Positions 57,716-62,365 of a stretch of DNA of 64,000 bases are shown here, in pieces. The translations under genes were made by a program, and so were the position numbers. The stretch lies in contig NZ_AP027368.1 in the NCBI RefSeq assembly GCF_030296015.1, positions 62,001 through 126,000 of the forward strand. The letters are read 5' to 3'. Numbering within the stretch: position 1 is the stretch's first letter; every line of letters begins with the position of its first letter. The DNA is from Ferrimonas sp. YFM (GTDB lineage Bacteria; Pseudomonadota; Gammaproteobacteria; Enterobacterales; Shewanellaceae). The notes below the pieces were generated by a model. That model made no database searches and was not told the DNA's origin. It worked only from the letters and a program-made list of their open reading frames with translations.

Positions 57716-59425
57716 ATGAAGCTGAAACAACAGATCGCCCAGAAGTTGATGATCGACCTGCGCTATTTTGGCGATTCGTCCGCCTCGCGCACCCCAATGA
57801 CCCGGTTGCCGAAAGCGGTGGCCGACTGGATCGCCCGTCATGGCCTGGGTGGGGTGATCCTGTTTTCCGAAAACCTGCAGCATCCGCAGCAGATTCGCGC
57901 CCTGACCTCGCAGCTGCAACAGGCGGCGGCGCGCTCTCCCCTTGGCAACCCTTTGCTGATCTCCGTGGACCAGGAGGGGGGACGGGTGTGTCGCACCCCC
58001 AAGGCGCACACCACCGCCTTTGCCGGCAACATGGCCCTGGGGGCGGCGTCATCCGTTTACCCTGAGCTGGCCAACGAGGTGGCCGTCGCCATGGGCCGGG
58101 AGTTGTCGGCCCTGGGGATCAATGTCAATCACGCGCCCTGCATCGACGTGAACAACAACCCGCACAACCCGGTGATCAACGTGCGTGCCTATGGAGATGA
58201 CCCTCATCTGGTGGCCCGACTGGGGCTGGCTCAGGCCCAGGGTCTGGCCGCAGGGGGCGTTCTGGCCACCCTCAAGCACTTCCCAGGCCATGGGGATACC
58301 CACAGTGACAGCCACACCGGCCTGCCCCGAGTGGATCACGACCGAGCCCACCTGGACAGGGTGGAGCTGGCTCCCTACCGCACCATCCTCAGGCAGGTTC
58401 AGCCCGCCATGGTGATGACCGCCCACATTCAGTTTCCTGCCCTGGATGACACCACCCTGACCGGCTTGGACGGTCGGCAGCACCTGGTGCCGGCCACCCT
58501 CTCCCGCAAGATCATCACCGGCCTGCTGCGCCAGGAGATGGGATACCGCGGGGTGGTGATCACCGATGCCCTGGATATGGCGGGCATCAGCGGCTGGTTG
58601 CCACTGACCCAGGCGGTGATCCACACCTTTGCCGCCGGAGTGGACATTGCCCTGATGCCGGTGCGCATTCGCTGTGAGGCGGATTTGACCAAGCTCGATA
58701 CCCTGATTGACGCTGTGGCCGGGGCGATGGACAGCGGCCAGCTGGACCCGGATGAGTGGCAGCGCTCCCTGGCGCGGATCGCCGACCTGAAGCGGCAGCT
58801 GACCTTGGGCGCTCTGCCCTCCCCAGAGGTGCTCGGCTGTGATGCCCACCGCGCCCTGGAGCGCAAGCTGGCGACCGCGGCTGTTACCCAGCTGTGCCCC
58901 AACACCCTGCCCAGGCCGGCCGCTGAACATCGCCACTGGTTGTTGATGATGCCCGATCTGGACAAGGCCCAGGCCCTGGCCGCCGCCCTGAGGGAGCTTA
59001 AGCCCGAACTTGAGATTAGCTGCGTCAGCCTGCTTCAGCCGGACGCGGAACTTCACAGGGCGATGGAGCGGGCGGAGTTGGTGGTCAGTGGCTTTATCTC
59101 GCCCCGCCAGAGCGCCGCCGAGTTGGGGGGCATGGAGGATGTGTCGGCGCTGAGTGAACAGGCACTGATTCAGGCCCACCAGCCTGAGCGGCTGGTGCGT
59201 TTGCTGACGCAGGCCAGAACCTGGGGCCAGTCGGTGGTCCACCTGAGCCTGCGAGCCCCCTACGAGTTTTCACAGGTCAGCCCCTGGTGCCACTGGGGCC
59301 TGGCCAGTTTTGCCTATCACCTGGACCGCCCCGGACGGGGGACGAGTTACGATTCACTGGCCGCGGTGCTGATGGGCCAGGCCCAGGCATCCGGTCTTAT
59401 GCCCCTGAAGGAGGGAGAGGAATGA
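57716..59425 (+). CDS. GH3 beta-N-acetylhexosaminidase
   Basis: 569 residues, cytosolic by lack of a signal peptide. GH3 domain (about 10-340): SVDQEGGRVCR, KHFPGHGDTHSDSHTGLPRV with the His/Asp pair of NagZ-type enzymes, and the nucleophile Asp in VVITDALDMAGI. About 230 C-terminal residues beyond the NagZ length form a second domain (HRHWLLMMPDLDKAQALAAAL), as in the 600-residue GH3 hexosaminidases of vibrios. Likely acts on chitin or peptidoglycan-derived GlcNAc conjugates. The ATG overlaps a GTG three bases before; ribosome site GGAG is 14 nt upstream, rather far. Overlaps nagA by 4 bp. Confidence 0.9.
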   Translation: MKLKQQIAQKLMIDLRYFGDSSASRTPMTRLPKAVADWIARHGLGGVILFSENLQHPQQIRALTSQLQQAAARSPLGNPLLISVDQEGGRVCRTPKAHTTAFAGNMALGAASSVYPELANEVAVAMGRELSALGINVNHAPCIDVNNNPHNPVINVRAYGDDPHLVARLGLAQAQGLAAGGVLATLKHFPGHGDTHSDSHTGLPRVDHDRAHLDRVELAPYRTILRQVQPAMVMTAHIQFPALDDTTLTGLDGRQHLVPATLSRKIITGLLRQEMGYRGVVITDALDMAGISGWLPLTQAVIHTFAAGVDIALMPVRIRCEADLTKLDTLIDAVAGAMDSGQLDPDEWQRSLARIADLKRQLTLGALPSPEVLGCDAHRALERKLATAAVTQLCPNTLPRPAAEHRHWLLMMPDLDKAQALAAALRELKPELEISCVSLLQPDAELHRAMERAELVVSGFISPRQSAAELGGMEDVSALSEQALIQAHQPERLVRLLTQARTWGQSVVHLSLRAPYEFSQVSPWCHWGLASFAYHLDRPGRGTSYDSLAAVLMGQAQASGLMPLKEGEE

Positions 59426-60558
59426 GCAAACGCTATCTGGTCAGCCAGATGTTCGACGGCCAGCAGATGTTTAAGAACGTGGTACTCACTGTAGAGAATG
59501 GCCGTGTGGCCGGCATCGACAAGGAGCGCAACCGCTGGGATGAGAAGCTGACCGGCATCCTGGCGCCGGGCTTTGTGGATCTTCAGGTCAATGGCGGCGG
59601 CGGCGTGCTGATCAACGACGCCGCCGACGCGGATCAGGTGCTGGAGGTGCTGAAGGCTCATGCCCGGTTTGGTACCTCGGCGATGCTGCCGACGGTGATC
59701 ACCGATGACCTGGCCAGCATGACCCGGGCCGCAGACGCGGTGGCCAGGGCTAGGCAGAGTTCCCCCTACGGCATCCTGGGGATTCACTTCGAAGGGCCGC
59801 ATCTGGCCCCGTCCAAAGGGGGCGTGCACAACACCGAGCATATGCGTCCCATCGGTGAGGCGGAGTGGCAGCTTTATGCACGGGACGACCTGGGGGTGAA
59901 GATGATCACCCTGGCGCCGGATGTGGTGTCAGAAGCGGAGATCCGTACCCTGGTGTCACTGGGGATGATCGTCTTCCTGGGTCACTCCAACGCCAGCGCC
60001 GACGAGGTGGACGCTGCCCTGGCCGCCGGCGCCGTCGGCTTTACCCATCTGTTCAATGCCATGTCGCCCCTGGCGTCCAGGGCGCCGGGCATGGTGGGCA
60101 GTGCTCTGCTGGATGAATACAGCATGGCGGGGATCATCCTCGATGGCCATCATATGGACTACCGCGCGGCCCGTCTGGCGCTGAAGTGCAAAGGGCAGGA
60201 CAACCTGATGCTGGTGACCGATGCCATGCCGCCGGTGGGCAGCGATCAGCAGAGTTTTGAGCTGGTGGGGCGTCAGGTCACCCGTCACCATTGCCGGCTG
60301 GAGGGGCCGGATGGCCAGTTGGCGGGCTCGGTGCTGGATATGAACCAGGCGGTGCTTAATGCCATCGATGGCCTGGGAGTGGCTCCGGGCCAGGCACTGC
60401 GCATGGCGTCGGCCAATCCCGCCCGCGCCCTGGGGATGGAGGAGGTACTGGGACACCTTAAGCCCGGCGCACTGGCCAACATGGCGCTGTTGGGGCCAGG
60501 GATGAAGGTGAGCCGCACGTGGGTGGCCGGTGAGACCCTGTGGCAGGAGAAAGTGTGA
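59422..60558 (+). CDS. nagA: N-acetylglucosamine-6-phosphate deacetylase
   Basis: 378 residues; converts GlcNAc-6-P to GlcN-6-P. Metal and catalytic motifs: GFVDLQVNGGGG (about 51-62), GIHFEGPHLAP, GHSNASADEV, THLFNAMSPLASR and LVTDAMPPVG with the catalytic Asp. Start ATG overlaps the GH3 stop (ATGA) and has GGAGAGG just upstream. The pair links cleavage of GlcNAc-containing substrate to its entry into metabolism. Upstream in-frame extension into the GH3 gene is rejected. Confidence 0.96.
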   Translation: MSKRYLVSQMFDGQQMFKNVVLTVENGRVAGIDKERNRWDEKLTGILAPGFVDLQVNGGGGVLINDAADADQVLEVLKAHARFGTSAMLPTVITDDLASMTRAADAVARARQSSPYGILGIHFEGPHLAPSKGGVHNTEHMRPIGEAEWQLYARDDLGVKMITLAPDVVSEAEIRTLVSLGMIVFLGHSNASADEVDAALAAGAVGFTHLFNAMSPLASRAPGMVGSALLDEYSMAGIILDGHHMDYRAARLALKCKGQDNLMLVTDAMPPVGSDQQSFELVGRQVTRHHCRLEGPDGQLAGSVLDMNQAVLNAIDGLGVAPGQALRMASANPARALGMEEVLGHLKPGALANMALLGPGMKVSRTWVAGETLWQEKV

Positions 60559-60599
60559 TCCTGCCCCATCCTGAGCGCCAGAAAAAATCATGAAGCGAC

Positions 60600-60650
60600 A
60601 TTCAAAACGATAAAGCCGATTAGGCCGATAGCCACACTCCGTTATACGAG
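60600..60650 (+). promoter_or_regulatory. Promoter region of tandem small RNA copy 1
   Basis: ATTCAAA, AAAG-CGATTAG and TTATAC (60642-60647) are shared with the second copy at exactly 219 bp distance; 25 of 32 positions match between 60600 and 60631 and copy 2. TTATAC is a fair -10; no clear -35, so an activator is likely. Confidence 0.45.
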
Positions 60651-60653
60651 AAG

Positions 60654-60764
60654 GGGAGGACTGGGTAGTCTGTAACCAATGGCCCACAGCACCAAGGCCC
60701 AGAGTACCGAGTTTCATCATCATCTCATATCGTTTTTTTGAGGGCCTGTTGGCCCTCTTTTTTT
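60654..60764 (+). ncRNA. Putative small RNA, tandem copy 1
   Basis: About 110-nt transcript predicted from the -10 TTATAC to an intrinsic terminator. The core GGCCCACAGCACCAAGG (60681-60697) is identical in both copies; so is the terminator stem GAGGGCC/GGCCCTC (60740-60757) with seven T, while the loop differs. No protein frame is shared. Located directly downstream of nagA. I do not recognise the RNA family (not GlmY/GlmZ, Spot 42, RyhB or GcvB by eye). Confidence 0.6.
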
Positions 60765-60818
60765 GCCCGATTCTCGCCCTGACAACACCGACAGAAGCAC
60801 GGGAAAAACCGGAGCGGG

Positions 60819-60866
60819 ATTCAAAGCGGCAAAGTCGATTAGTGCAATAGTAAGAGTGCGTTATAC
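60819..60866 (+). promoter_or_regulatory. Promoter region of tandem small RNA copy 2
   Basis: Second copy of the ATTCAAA / AAAG-CGATTAG / TTATAC (60861-60866) block, offset 219 bp from the first. Confidence 0.45.
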
Positions 60867-60872
60867 GACCAA

Positions 60873-60984
60873 GAAGGGGCCGAGTAAGCTGTAATCAATG
60901 GCCCACAGCACCAAGGACCAGAGTCTCCAGTTTCACGACCTTATCTTATCGATTTCCTTGAGGGCCTGATGGCCCTCTTTTTTT
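60873..60984 (+). ncRNA. Putative small RNA, tandem copy 2
   Basis: Same organisation as copy 1: core 60900-60916, terminator stem GAGGGCC/GGCCCTC (60960-60977), seven T ending at 60984. Between the two cores sequence has drifted, so the duplication is not recent. The terminator runs into the stop of the convergent NirD-like gene. Confidence 0.6.
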
Positions 60985-61321
60985 ACTCCAGTGCCAGCTG
61001 CACCCGATTGTTCTTCACCCTCACCGGAAAGGTGGCCAGGGAGATCTCCTGCTGCTCCAGGTTGCGACCGCTGTGCAGACAGTAGCGCCGCCGCTGGCCG
61101 GCGGCCTCCAGGGCCAGGGTACGGGACTCTTCGTCGACCCGGGCACGAAAGACCGAGTTGGCTTTGCCCAGGGGATCGTGATTGTCCAGGGCAAACAGCT
61201 GGCCTGAACGCAACAGAAACAGCGCCAACTGCTGATCCTGCACCAGGGCGCACACTCCCTCACCCGGATTGAGTTCCGACAGGGCACAGATATCCTGCCA
61301 GTCTGTGCAATAACGGCTCAT
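60983..61321 (-). CDS. NirD-like Rieske-fold protein
   Basis: 112 residues. Resembles the small subunit of assimilatory NADH nitrite reductase: FALDNHDPLGKANSVFRARV and YCLHSGRNLEQQEISLATFPVRV. The Rieske iron-sulfur ligands are not complete (as in NirD). No nirB neighbour is in the window, so the partner is elsewhere or the protein has another role. ATG 61321 has GGGAGG 7 nt upstream; a GTG 6 bp earlier is too close to that site. Confidence 0.8.
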   Translation of the reverse strand: MSRYCTDWQDICALSELNPGEGVCALVQDQQLALFLLRSGQLFALDNHDPLGKANSVFRARVDEESRTLALEAAGQRRRYCLHSGRNLEQQEISLATFPVRVKNNRVQLALE

Positions 61322-61570
61322 AAGCACCTCCCTCGTTTCCCGTCACAATAGCGGGTCGTCATGACCCTGCCATGACACAGCAAGAAGGGGGCCGGGTCAT
61401 TGAAACATCAAAGCCTAATTAAGTATTTGTTTGATAATCAGAGTCTTATGTAGATAAATCTGAGATTTTGGTCTGAGCAGAATCGAGATGACCAGCTGCT
61501 ATACTGCGCGGCATTGGCGCACAGTGCCCTGTTTTGGCGCGGCCATCCTATTGAAAAGGTGAAGATTGCG

Positions 61571-61882: not shown

Positions 61883-62365
61883 ATGAACAACACCAACCTG
61901 ATTGGGCTGAACAGCCAGGGTGCCGAGCAACTGGCCGGTCAACTGAACGACCTGCTGGCCAACTACCAGATTCTTTACATGAACGTCCGCGGTTTCCATT
62001 GGAACATCAAAGGGGCCGATTTCTTTGAGTTGCACACCAAGTTTGAGGAGATCTACAACGTCCTGCTGGAGAAGGTGGACGAGATCGCCGAACGGGTCCT
62101 GACCCTGGGGCATCAGCCTCTGCACGCGTTTTCCGATTACCTGCAACACAGCGAGATCCGCGAAGCGGTGCAGGTGAGCAGCGGCAGTGAAGGCATCGAC
62201 CTGCTGCTCGACGGCTACAAGGTGTTGATCGCCAAGCAGCGTGCCATCCTGGAGTCCGCCGGCGAATTGGGGGATGAAGGGACTGCCTCGCTGATGAGCG
62301 ACTACCTGTCCCAGCAGGAGAAGGAGAGTTGGATGCTGGCAGCCTACCGCGGACGCAGTGCCTGA
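61883..62365 (+). CDS. dps: Dps-family ferritin-like DNA-protection protein
   Basis: 160 residues; dodecameric mini-ferritin that oxidises Fe(II) with hydrogen peroxide. Ferroxidase residues across the dimer interface: His39 in FHWNIKG, His51 and Glu55 in LHTKFEE, Asp66 and Glu70 in VDEIAERV. No basic DNA-binding N-terminal tail is present, so DNA binding is doubtful. ATG start with GGGGATAG upstream. Second iron-storage gene in the window besides ftnA. Confidence 0.93.
   Translation: MNNTNLIGLNSQGAEQLAGQLNDLLANYQILYMNVRGFHWNIKGADFFELHTKFEEIYNVLLEKVDEIAERVLTLGHQPLHAFSDYLQHSEIREAVQVSSGSEGIDLLLDGYKVLIAKQRAILESAGELGDEGTASLMSDYLSQQEKESWMLAAYRGRSA

Follow-up and report, generated by a model that had tools for sequence, protein, structure and literature searches.

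What do two copies of a short repeated unit directly behind nagA encode, and on what could their products act? The units, a and b, lie in a window of 64,000 nucleotides (the whole stretch of DNA analysed, C1:62001-126000 of the window genome, G000), flanked by nagA (59422-60558) and, on the other side, by a Rieske-type gene in convergent orientation (60983-61327), in a neighbourhood that also holds a BFD gene and a dps-type ferritin-like gene (61883-62365, plus strand; Pfam Ferritin). A preliminary description had read them as tandem small RNA genes that share a 17-base seed, and had suggested amino-sugar control from their position.

Two tandem units with a common layout

The duplication itself was correctly placed by that description: the repeat spans 60594-60736 and 60813-60955, a spacing of 219 bp, with 74% identity over 143 ungapped bases, and a BLAST search with unit a recovers unit b (E 2.6e-30, 77% identity). 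The repeat search also paired the 32-nt terminators of the two units at 91% identity. Each unit reads, on the plus strand, ATTCAAA...CGATTA-N5-ATAG...CGTTATAC, followed by a stretch that has diverged, then CAATGGCCCACAGCACCAAGG, the tail and finally the terminator.

The promoter block of unit a occupies 60600-60647 and comprises ATTCAAA, CGATTA (60617-60622), ATAG (60628-60631) and a -10-like TTATAC (60642-60647), as seen in alignments A2 and A3. It precedes a predicted RNA of about 110 nt (60653-60764), whose start is deduced from the -10-like box and whose end is the T run, and which contains the 17-base core (60681-60697), the tail TTTCATCATCATC (60712-60724) that we propose as seed, and an intrinsic terminator (60740-60764). 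Unit b has its promoter block at 60819-60866 (CGATTA 60836-60841, ATAG 60847-60850, TTATAC 60861-60866), a predicted RNA at 60872-60984, an exact copy of the core (60900-60916), a diverged tail TTTCACGACCTTATC (60931-60945), for which no start-codon target was found, and a terminator at 60960-60984. The terminator scan, which called 3 terminator-like sites against a shuffle mean of 1.3, placed two of the three at the ends of units a and b, and both have the same stem (GAGGGCC/GGCCCTC, then seven T). Promoter block, core and terminator are thus islands common to the two units, as had been described, but the core is not the more widely shared part: further afield in the genus it is the promoter block that recurs, together with the tail TTTCATCATCATC, of which only unit a has an intact copy.

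The units are predicted small RNA genes of a Ferrimonas family

BLAST with the 411-bp region gave matches in 7 of 60 genomes, the window genome included. Both units are present in three genomes, the window genome, F. futtsuensis DSM 18154 (G009; 91% identity) and F. sediminicola IMCC35001 (G012; 74%), and in each the pair lies directly after nagA. The predicted RNA of unit a is conserved in both relatives, and the terminator stem is identical in all six aligned units. A model of the whole RNA (R1) matched at E<=1 in 107 of 152 family genomes; strong matches were confined to these three genomes and to the tails of the dps genes of G008 (2.9e-7) and G005 (4.2e-5). The match in G002 (0.0035) is likewise its dps tail, and the remaining matches (best E 1.3e-4) were treated as noise, those in G029 and G012:C55 being terminator stems. 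A 37-bp BLAST match in G046 was dropped, as the surrounding sequence holds no such unit. The terminator stem occurs in three more copies (L008-L010), and no tail accompanies it in the loci examined.

The preliminary description had recognized no known small RNA in the units, and a comparison with Rfam 15, at gathering and at relaxed thresholds, bears this out; of the chance matches, ncS16 scored highest, with 17.8 bits where the cut-off is 48 bits. Features of Hfq-type small RNAs are present by prediction: an own promoter block, an unpaired tail, a U-rich stretch and a Rho-independent terminator. A covariation test found no pair of the predicted fold that had changed on both sides.

Could the units instead be short coding genes? 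In unit a, ATGGCCCACAGCACCAAG opens a frame of 20 codons (MAHSTKAQSTEFHHHLISFF; 60680-60741, ending FHHHLISFF), which might encode a leader peptide or belong to a dual-function RNA, and in each of the six units a frame begins at this position. Its stop is not conserved, however, with the frames of G009 unit a and of unit b in both G000 and G009 running on; by eye there is no Shine-Dalgarno site at the usual distance; and no downstream gene is available to be attenuated, the next gene being convergent at 60983. We regard a coding function as extremely unlikely, and a leader peptide or attenuator was rejected outright for want of a downstream gene. With promoter block and terminator kept in three species, the end of the short frame not conserved, and related arrays in four further species, the prediction of tandem small RNA genes stands: the window units are best explained, on this comparative evidence, as stand-alone small RNA genes of a Ferrimonas family.

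The promoter block resembles those of ahpC and dps

No sigma70 consensus promoter was called at the units (0 versus 0.6 in shuffles), which means that a good -35 box is lacking and makes a weak -35 aided by an activator likely. We looked at the block with two models, R2, trained on the six window-type promoters alone (G000, G009 and G012), and R3, trained on 12 Ferrimonas promoters of this type, among them sites of G003 and G004 entered by eye. The alignment A3 leaves aside both G009 promoters, units 1, 2 and 5 of G007, units 1 and 4 of G003 and unit 1 of G004, as near-duplicates, unclear first units or sites not yet seen. The window blocks score 37.5 bits (unit a) and 31.4 bits (unit b) with R3, both being in its training set.

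At E<=0.01, R3 matched in 125 of 152 family genomes, namely 9 of 14 Ferrimonas genomes (with no match in the other 5) and 116 of 138 others. The 116 hold 119 matches, two in each of three genomes and one in the rest. We inspected 54 of these 119, from 51 genomes, and found ahpC at 51 of the 54, one for each of the 51 genomes; the three loci lacking ahpC are the other matches of the three two-match genomes. In 48 of 51 cases the motif shares the strand of the AhpC match and lies 89-156 bp ahead of its start; at L270-L272 the R3 match, with AACAG for GATAG, is likewise on that strand, 134 bp ahead of the AhpC start. The one protein tested, that of L244, is AhpC by NCBIfam (339.7 bits, cut-off 272). 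R2 alone finds 14 of 14 ahpC loci supplied to it (E 1.6e-5 to 0.006 in 52 kb), these loci having been preselected by R3.

Within Ferrimonas, R3 has 19 matches at E<=0.01, every one of them a small RNA unit or the dps promoter of G005 or G008. R2 finds these two dps promoters as well, at corresponding positions (E 0.007 and 0.011 per genome). The block stands about 80 bp upstream of dps in both genomes, and immediately after dps come two copies of TTTCATCATCATC and the same GAGGGCC terminator. The window's own dps, the counterpart of these genes, has no R3 match. In G002, dps (L051, G002:C8) carries tail and terminator in its 3' UTR, yet that genome has no R3 match. Taken together, the R2 and R3 matches at ahpC and dps mean that the window promoter is, judged by its motif, of the ahpC/dps type.

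Further tandem arrays came to light by promoter and tail. The array of G007 was reached by R2 and a tail search, and those of G003 and G004 by a tail search; R3 adds three array sites of G013 that were absent from its training (E 5e-6 to 8e-5). By the tail rule the arrays count 3 (G003), 2 (G004), 6 (G007) and 5 (G013) units, G003 having a fourth with a changed tail, and each of the four arrays has a LON-substrate-domain gene on one side and a DUF2061 gene on the other. Only part of the G007 array is matched by R2, which leaves those of G003, G004 and G013 unmatched at E<=1, so the latter three are linked to the window by R3 and the tail. In units of these arrays (L134, L160, L162 and L204) the place of TTATAC in the window promoters is taken by TTGGCC, TTGGTA or TTGGCG, which make a poor -10.

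The association with dps raises the question of whether the units are simply decayed duplicates of a dps transcript, functionless, with promoter and 3' end left after the coding part was lost. The same promoter and tail do flank dps in G005 and G008, as such an origin would have it. Yet three species keep both ends and the core, and it is the 5' part of the RNA that diverges; similar free-standing arrays occur at another locus in four species; we consider functionless remnants very unlikely. The idea of amino-sugar control finds no support: elsewhere in Ferrimonas the related promoter and tail occur around dps or between the LON-domain and DUF2061 genes, the promoter is like the one before ahpC, and it is to cytochrome gene starts that the tail shows complementarity.

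An OxyR-type promoter is the favoured reading

Two S. oneidensis studies place ahpCF and dps under OxyR control and describe the oxidized form of OxyR as the activator (PMC6416212, PMC8787470); OxyR sites are given as ATAG-N7-CTAT repeats (PMC8787470). The CGAT-N7-ATAG of the window block fits the middle of such a site, and of the four elements it alone is clear in the window promoters, the outer ones fitting poorly. An OxyR family model matched in 14 of 14 Ferrimonas genomes, never above its cut-off, and is not specific, as it also matched 10 of 14 control genomes. The match in F. futtsuensis was examined further: this OxyR-like protein has S. oneidensis OxyR as its best match (PDB 7L4S, E 2.8e-135) and two cysteines nine residues apart, and its gene adjoins a peroxiredoxin C gene. 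The best match to the model in the window genome is at C1:854381, well away from the window at C1:62001-126000, so the units are not beside oxyR.

It could be that tail and targets are as proposed here and that the promoter answers another regulator of ahpC and dps, responding for example to iron or stationary phase, with a signal other than peroxide. The weak outer OxyR elements would suit this, as would the restriction of strong Ferrimonas R3 matches to the small RNA units and two dps promoters, and the -10 region that varies between loci. Against it, the two genes that share the promoter, ahpC and dps, are both OxyR-controlled in Shewanella, and the spacing of CGAT-N7-ATAG is that of OxyR elements. 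We consider another regulator unlikely, though deserving of attention. Our preferred explanation of the window units is that they are OxyR-type small RNAs, predicted to work like OxyS with no match to the OxyS family.

The tail is complementary to the starts of cytochrome genes

The exact 13-mer TTTCATCATCATC is present in 107 copies in 14 Ferrimonas genomes (7.6 each) versus 183 in 138 relatives (1.3 each; one-sided Mann-Whitney p 9e-9, kinship ignored). By script rules and a hand-made list of loci with terminators, 43 of the 107 sites fall on the terminator side (small-RNA-like or 3' UTR), 48 are antisense to a start codon, where the complement reads GATGATGATGAAA, and 16 are neither, L172 and L176 being put there because the match lies inside a longer frame. 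The 48 start-codon sites belong to frames with an export-signal-like start, as judged by a crude residue count that also passed L158, an iron-sulfur protein lacking a clear signal. Thirty of the 48 proteins contain CXXCH, the c-type haem motif, counted in the stretch available, mostly the first 100-230 residues; the 48 form 20 groups, with CXXCH in 10 of the 20.

Family searches covered 20 of the 48 proteins with Pfam and 10 of these 20 with NCBIfam. Among the cytochromes were OmcA/MtrC decahaem, DmsE-family decahaem, NrfA, cytochrome c3, small cytochromes c and dihaem peroxidase; the others were an iron-sulfur CCG-domain protein, porin-type and other outer-membrane proteins, one curlin-repeat and one cupin protein, and two with cadherin/Ig-like domains. 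One of the 20 had no family, the family hits of L150 were all below curated cut-offs, and the best NCBIfam names were below cut-offs as well, most protein stretches being partial. Since the tail complement contains ATG and AAA, some bias to secreted starts of the MK type is expected even in the absence of regulation. The haem bias does not appear to be explained by this content, CXXCH occurring in 0 of 81 open stretches of the window, a crude check of the background.

The window genome has nine tail sites: unit a, three small-RNA-like sites of a single array (L135), one 3' UTR, three starts and one other. The starts belong to an OmcA-like gene, an MtrC-like gene and a lipoprotein gene, with which tail a has predicted pairing energies of -25.4, -25.3 and -22.7 kcal/mol; of 500 shuffled tails, 0, 0 and 2, respectively, paired as well. 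Unit b pairs weakly (-13.6 to -15.8). Its own tail complement has nine other places at 2-3 mismatches, as many as the reversed control (9), and the two 2-mismatch places both lie inside long open frames. The seed-like tail of unit b is lost in the window genome and G009, with a near version kept in G012, which suggests that this unit either acts on other targets or is perhaps in decay. Elsewhere, the 13-mer and a terminator stand after a gene ending like a c-type cytochrome (L139, G000:C1:4356335, and L140) and after another gene in G009 (L142); these tails may possibly belong to 3' UTR-derived RNAs.

The preliminary description had placed a common seed in the 17-base core, and a related alternative is that the core, or the RNA fold, is the working part and the tail only a spacer next to Hfq or the terminator. 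The core is indeed identical in units a and b (and in both G009 units) while tail b has diverged, and an ACCAAG-like island occurs in some units of other arrays. Its reach is narrow, however. The core is changed in G012, and a degenerate core pattern, present in F. futtsuensis and F. sediminicola, was found nowhere else in the genome collection (the window's own record perhaps lying outside it). A scan of the window with the core complement gave two places at 3 mismatches and none closer, and no target was found. The tail, by contrast, is met again next to other terminators and antisense to start codons, and the fold lacks covariation. We judge it improbable that core or fold is the working part, and do not retain the core as common seed.

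The same tail follows a second type of promoter

The sigmaE promoter consensus is, in general terms, of the form GAACTT-N15..18-TCT. We sought this pattern in seven loci preselected for the tail and found it in six (G000, G002, G005, G008, G009 and G012), 22 times, and not in L134 of G007; a CAT-rich tail follows 21 of the 22 sites and a T run all 22. At L135 (G000:C1:3306700-3310700), two of the three window-genome sites have the exact pattern and the third GAACTA. L135, L120, L126, L133, L145 and L148 hold short units, many in tandem, with GAACTT-N16-ACTCT promoters, the tail TTTCATCATCATCTCC or variants and strong terminators; in five of these six loci (all save L145) Rfam gave sub-threshold matches only, such as suhB and anti-hemB.

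The occurrence of the tail with two promoter types, although seen outside the window, supports reading it as a seed. It also invites a wider proposal, which we hold tentatively and would not yet bet on: one seed, UUUCAUCAUCAUC, may be carried by many tandem Ferrimonas RNA genes under OxyR-type (peroxide) and sigmaE-type (envelope stress) alarms, with matching starts (such as GGAG-AUGAUGAUGAAA) kept in genes for extracellular electron transfer and other respiratory cytochromes. Metal respiration would then be under a genus-wide RNA brake, and seed and targets would evolve together.

A proposed brake on cytochrome synthesis under peroxide

From the units, their conservation, the likeness to ahpC promoters and the complementarity of the tail, all read from sequence, we arrive at a reading that we think moderately probable: the units are OxyR-controlled, OxyS-like small RNAs, and unit a blocks translation of multihaem cytochrome and other envelope mRNAs under peroxide. 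Peroxide would lead OxyR, presumably bound at the promoter blocks, to switch on transcription of the units, just as it acts in relatives on dps and genes of the ahpC type. Unit a RNA would then, probably with Hfq as partner, pair through its single-stranded tail UUUCAUCAUCAUC with the start region GAUGAUGAUGAAA and repress translation of multihaem c-type cytochromes and other envelope proteins, and any role of unit b we can only infer. The outcome would be less haem iron and fewer leaky electron carriers under oxidative stress.

The large load of haem and iron in the envelope of metal-respiring bacteria is a hazard in peroxide, and for S. oneidensis a trade-off between cytochrome production and the genes under OxyR control has been raised as speculation (PMC8787470). 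If correct, our proposal would link peroxide sensing directly to extracellular electron transfer and would show an OxyS-like function carried by an unrelated sequence. Literature searches, with most subscription journals outside their reach, found no paper on Ferrimonas small RNAs and no such family among the papers listed on OxyR, OxyS and small RNAs or on OxyR, dps and UTR-derived small RNAs.

Comparison with known small RNAs

OxyS of E. coli is a stand-alone RNA of about 110 nt, OxyR-controlled, with an intrinsic terminator and divergent from oxyR. The window units resemble it in predicted length (about 110 nt), in standing alone, in their apparently OxyR-type promoter and in their intrinsic terminator; they differ in being tandem, in not lying beside oxyR and in a tail complementary to cytochrome starts, and the OxyS covariance model is absent among Rfam matches up to E 10 at 60560-61000. 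RNAs of the MicA/RybB type are sigmaE-dependent, and MicA has a AUCAUCAUC stretch. Similar to these are the other tandem RNAs of Ferrimonas, which have promoters of the form GAACTT-N16-ACTCT and a comparable tail, whereas the window units, as read from their sequence, lack a GAACTT-N16-TCT promoter and gave no MicA match in the Rfam scans. Small RNAs derived from 3' UTRs find a likeness in G002, G005 and G008, where tail and terminator come directly after dps; the window units differ from these in that each carries a promoter block of its own and lacks a long coding part.

RyhB, finally, is Fur-controlled. The window promoter differs in being of the ahpC/dps type, no Fur box was seen in it by eye, and the RyhB covariance model had no match in the Rfam scans of the units. 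The likeness lies in the proposed targets: a study comparing fur and ryhB mutants reports that S. oneidensis RyhB lowers c-type cytochromes, including mtrC, mtrA and nrfA, and predicts that it pairs near the start of scyA and cctA (PMC5826389). For RNA control of such proteins, RyhB is a precedent in Shewanella.
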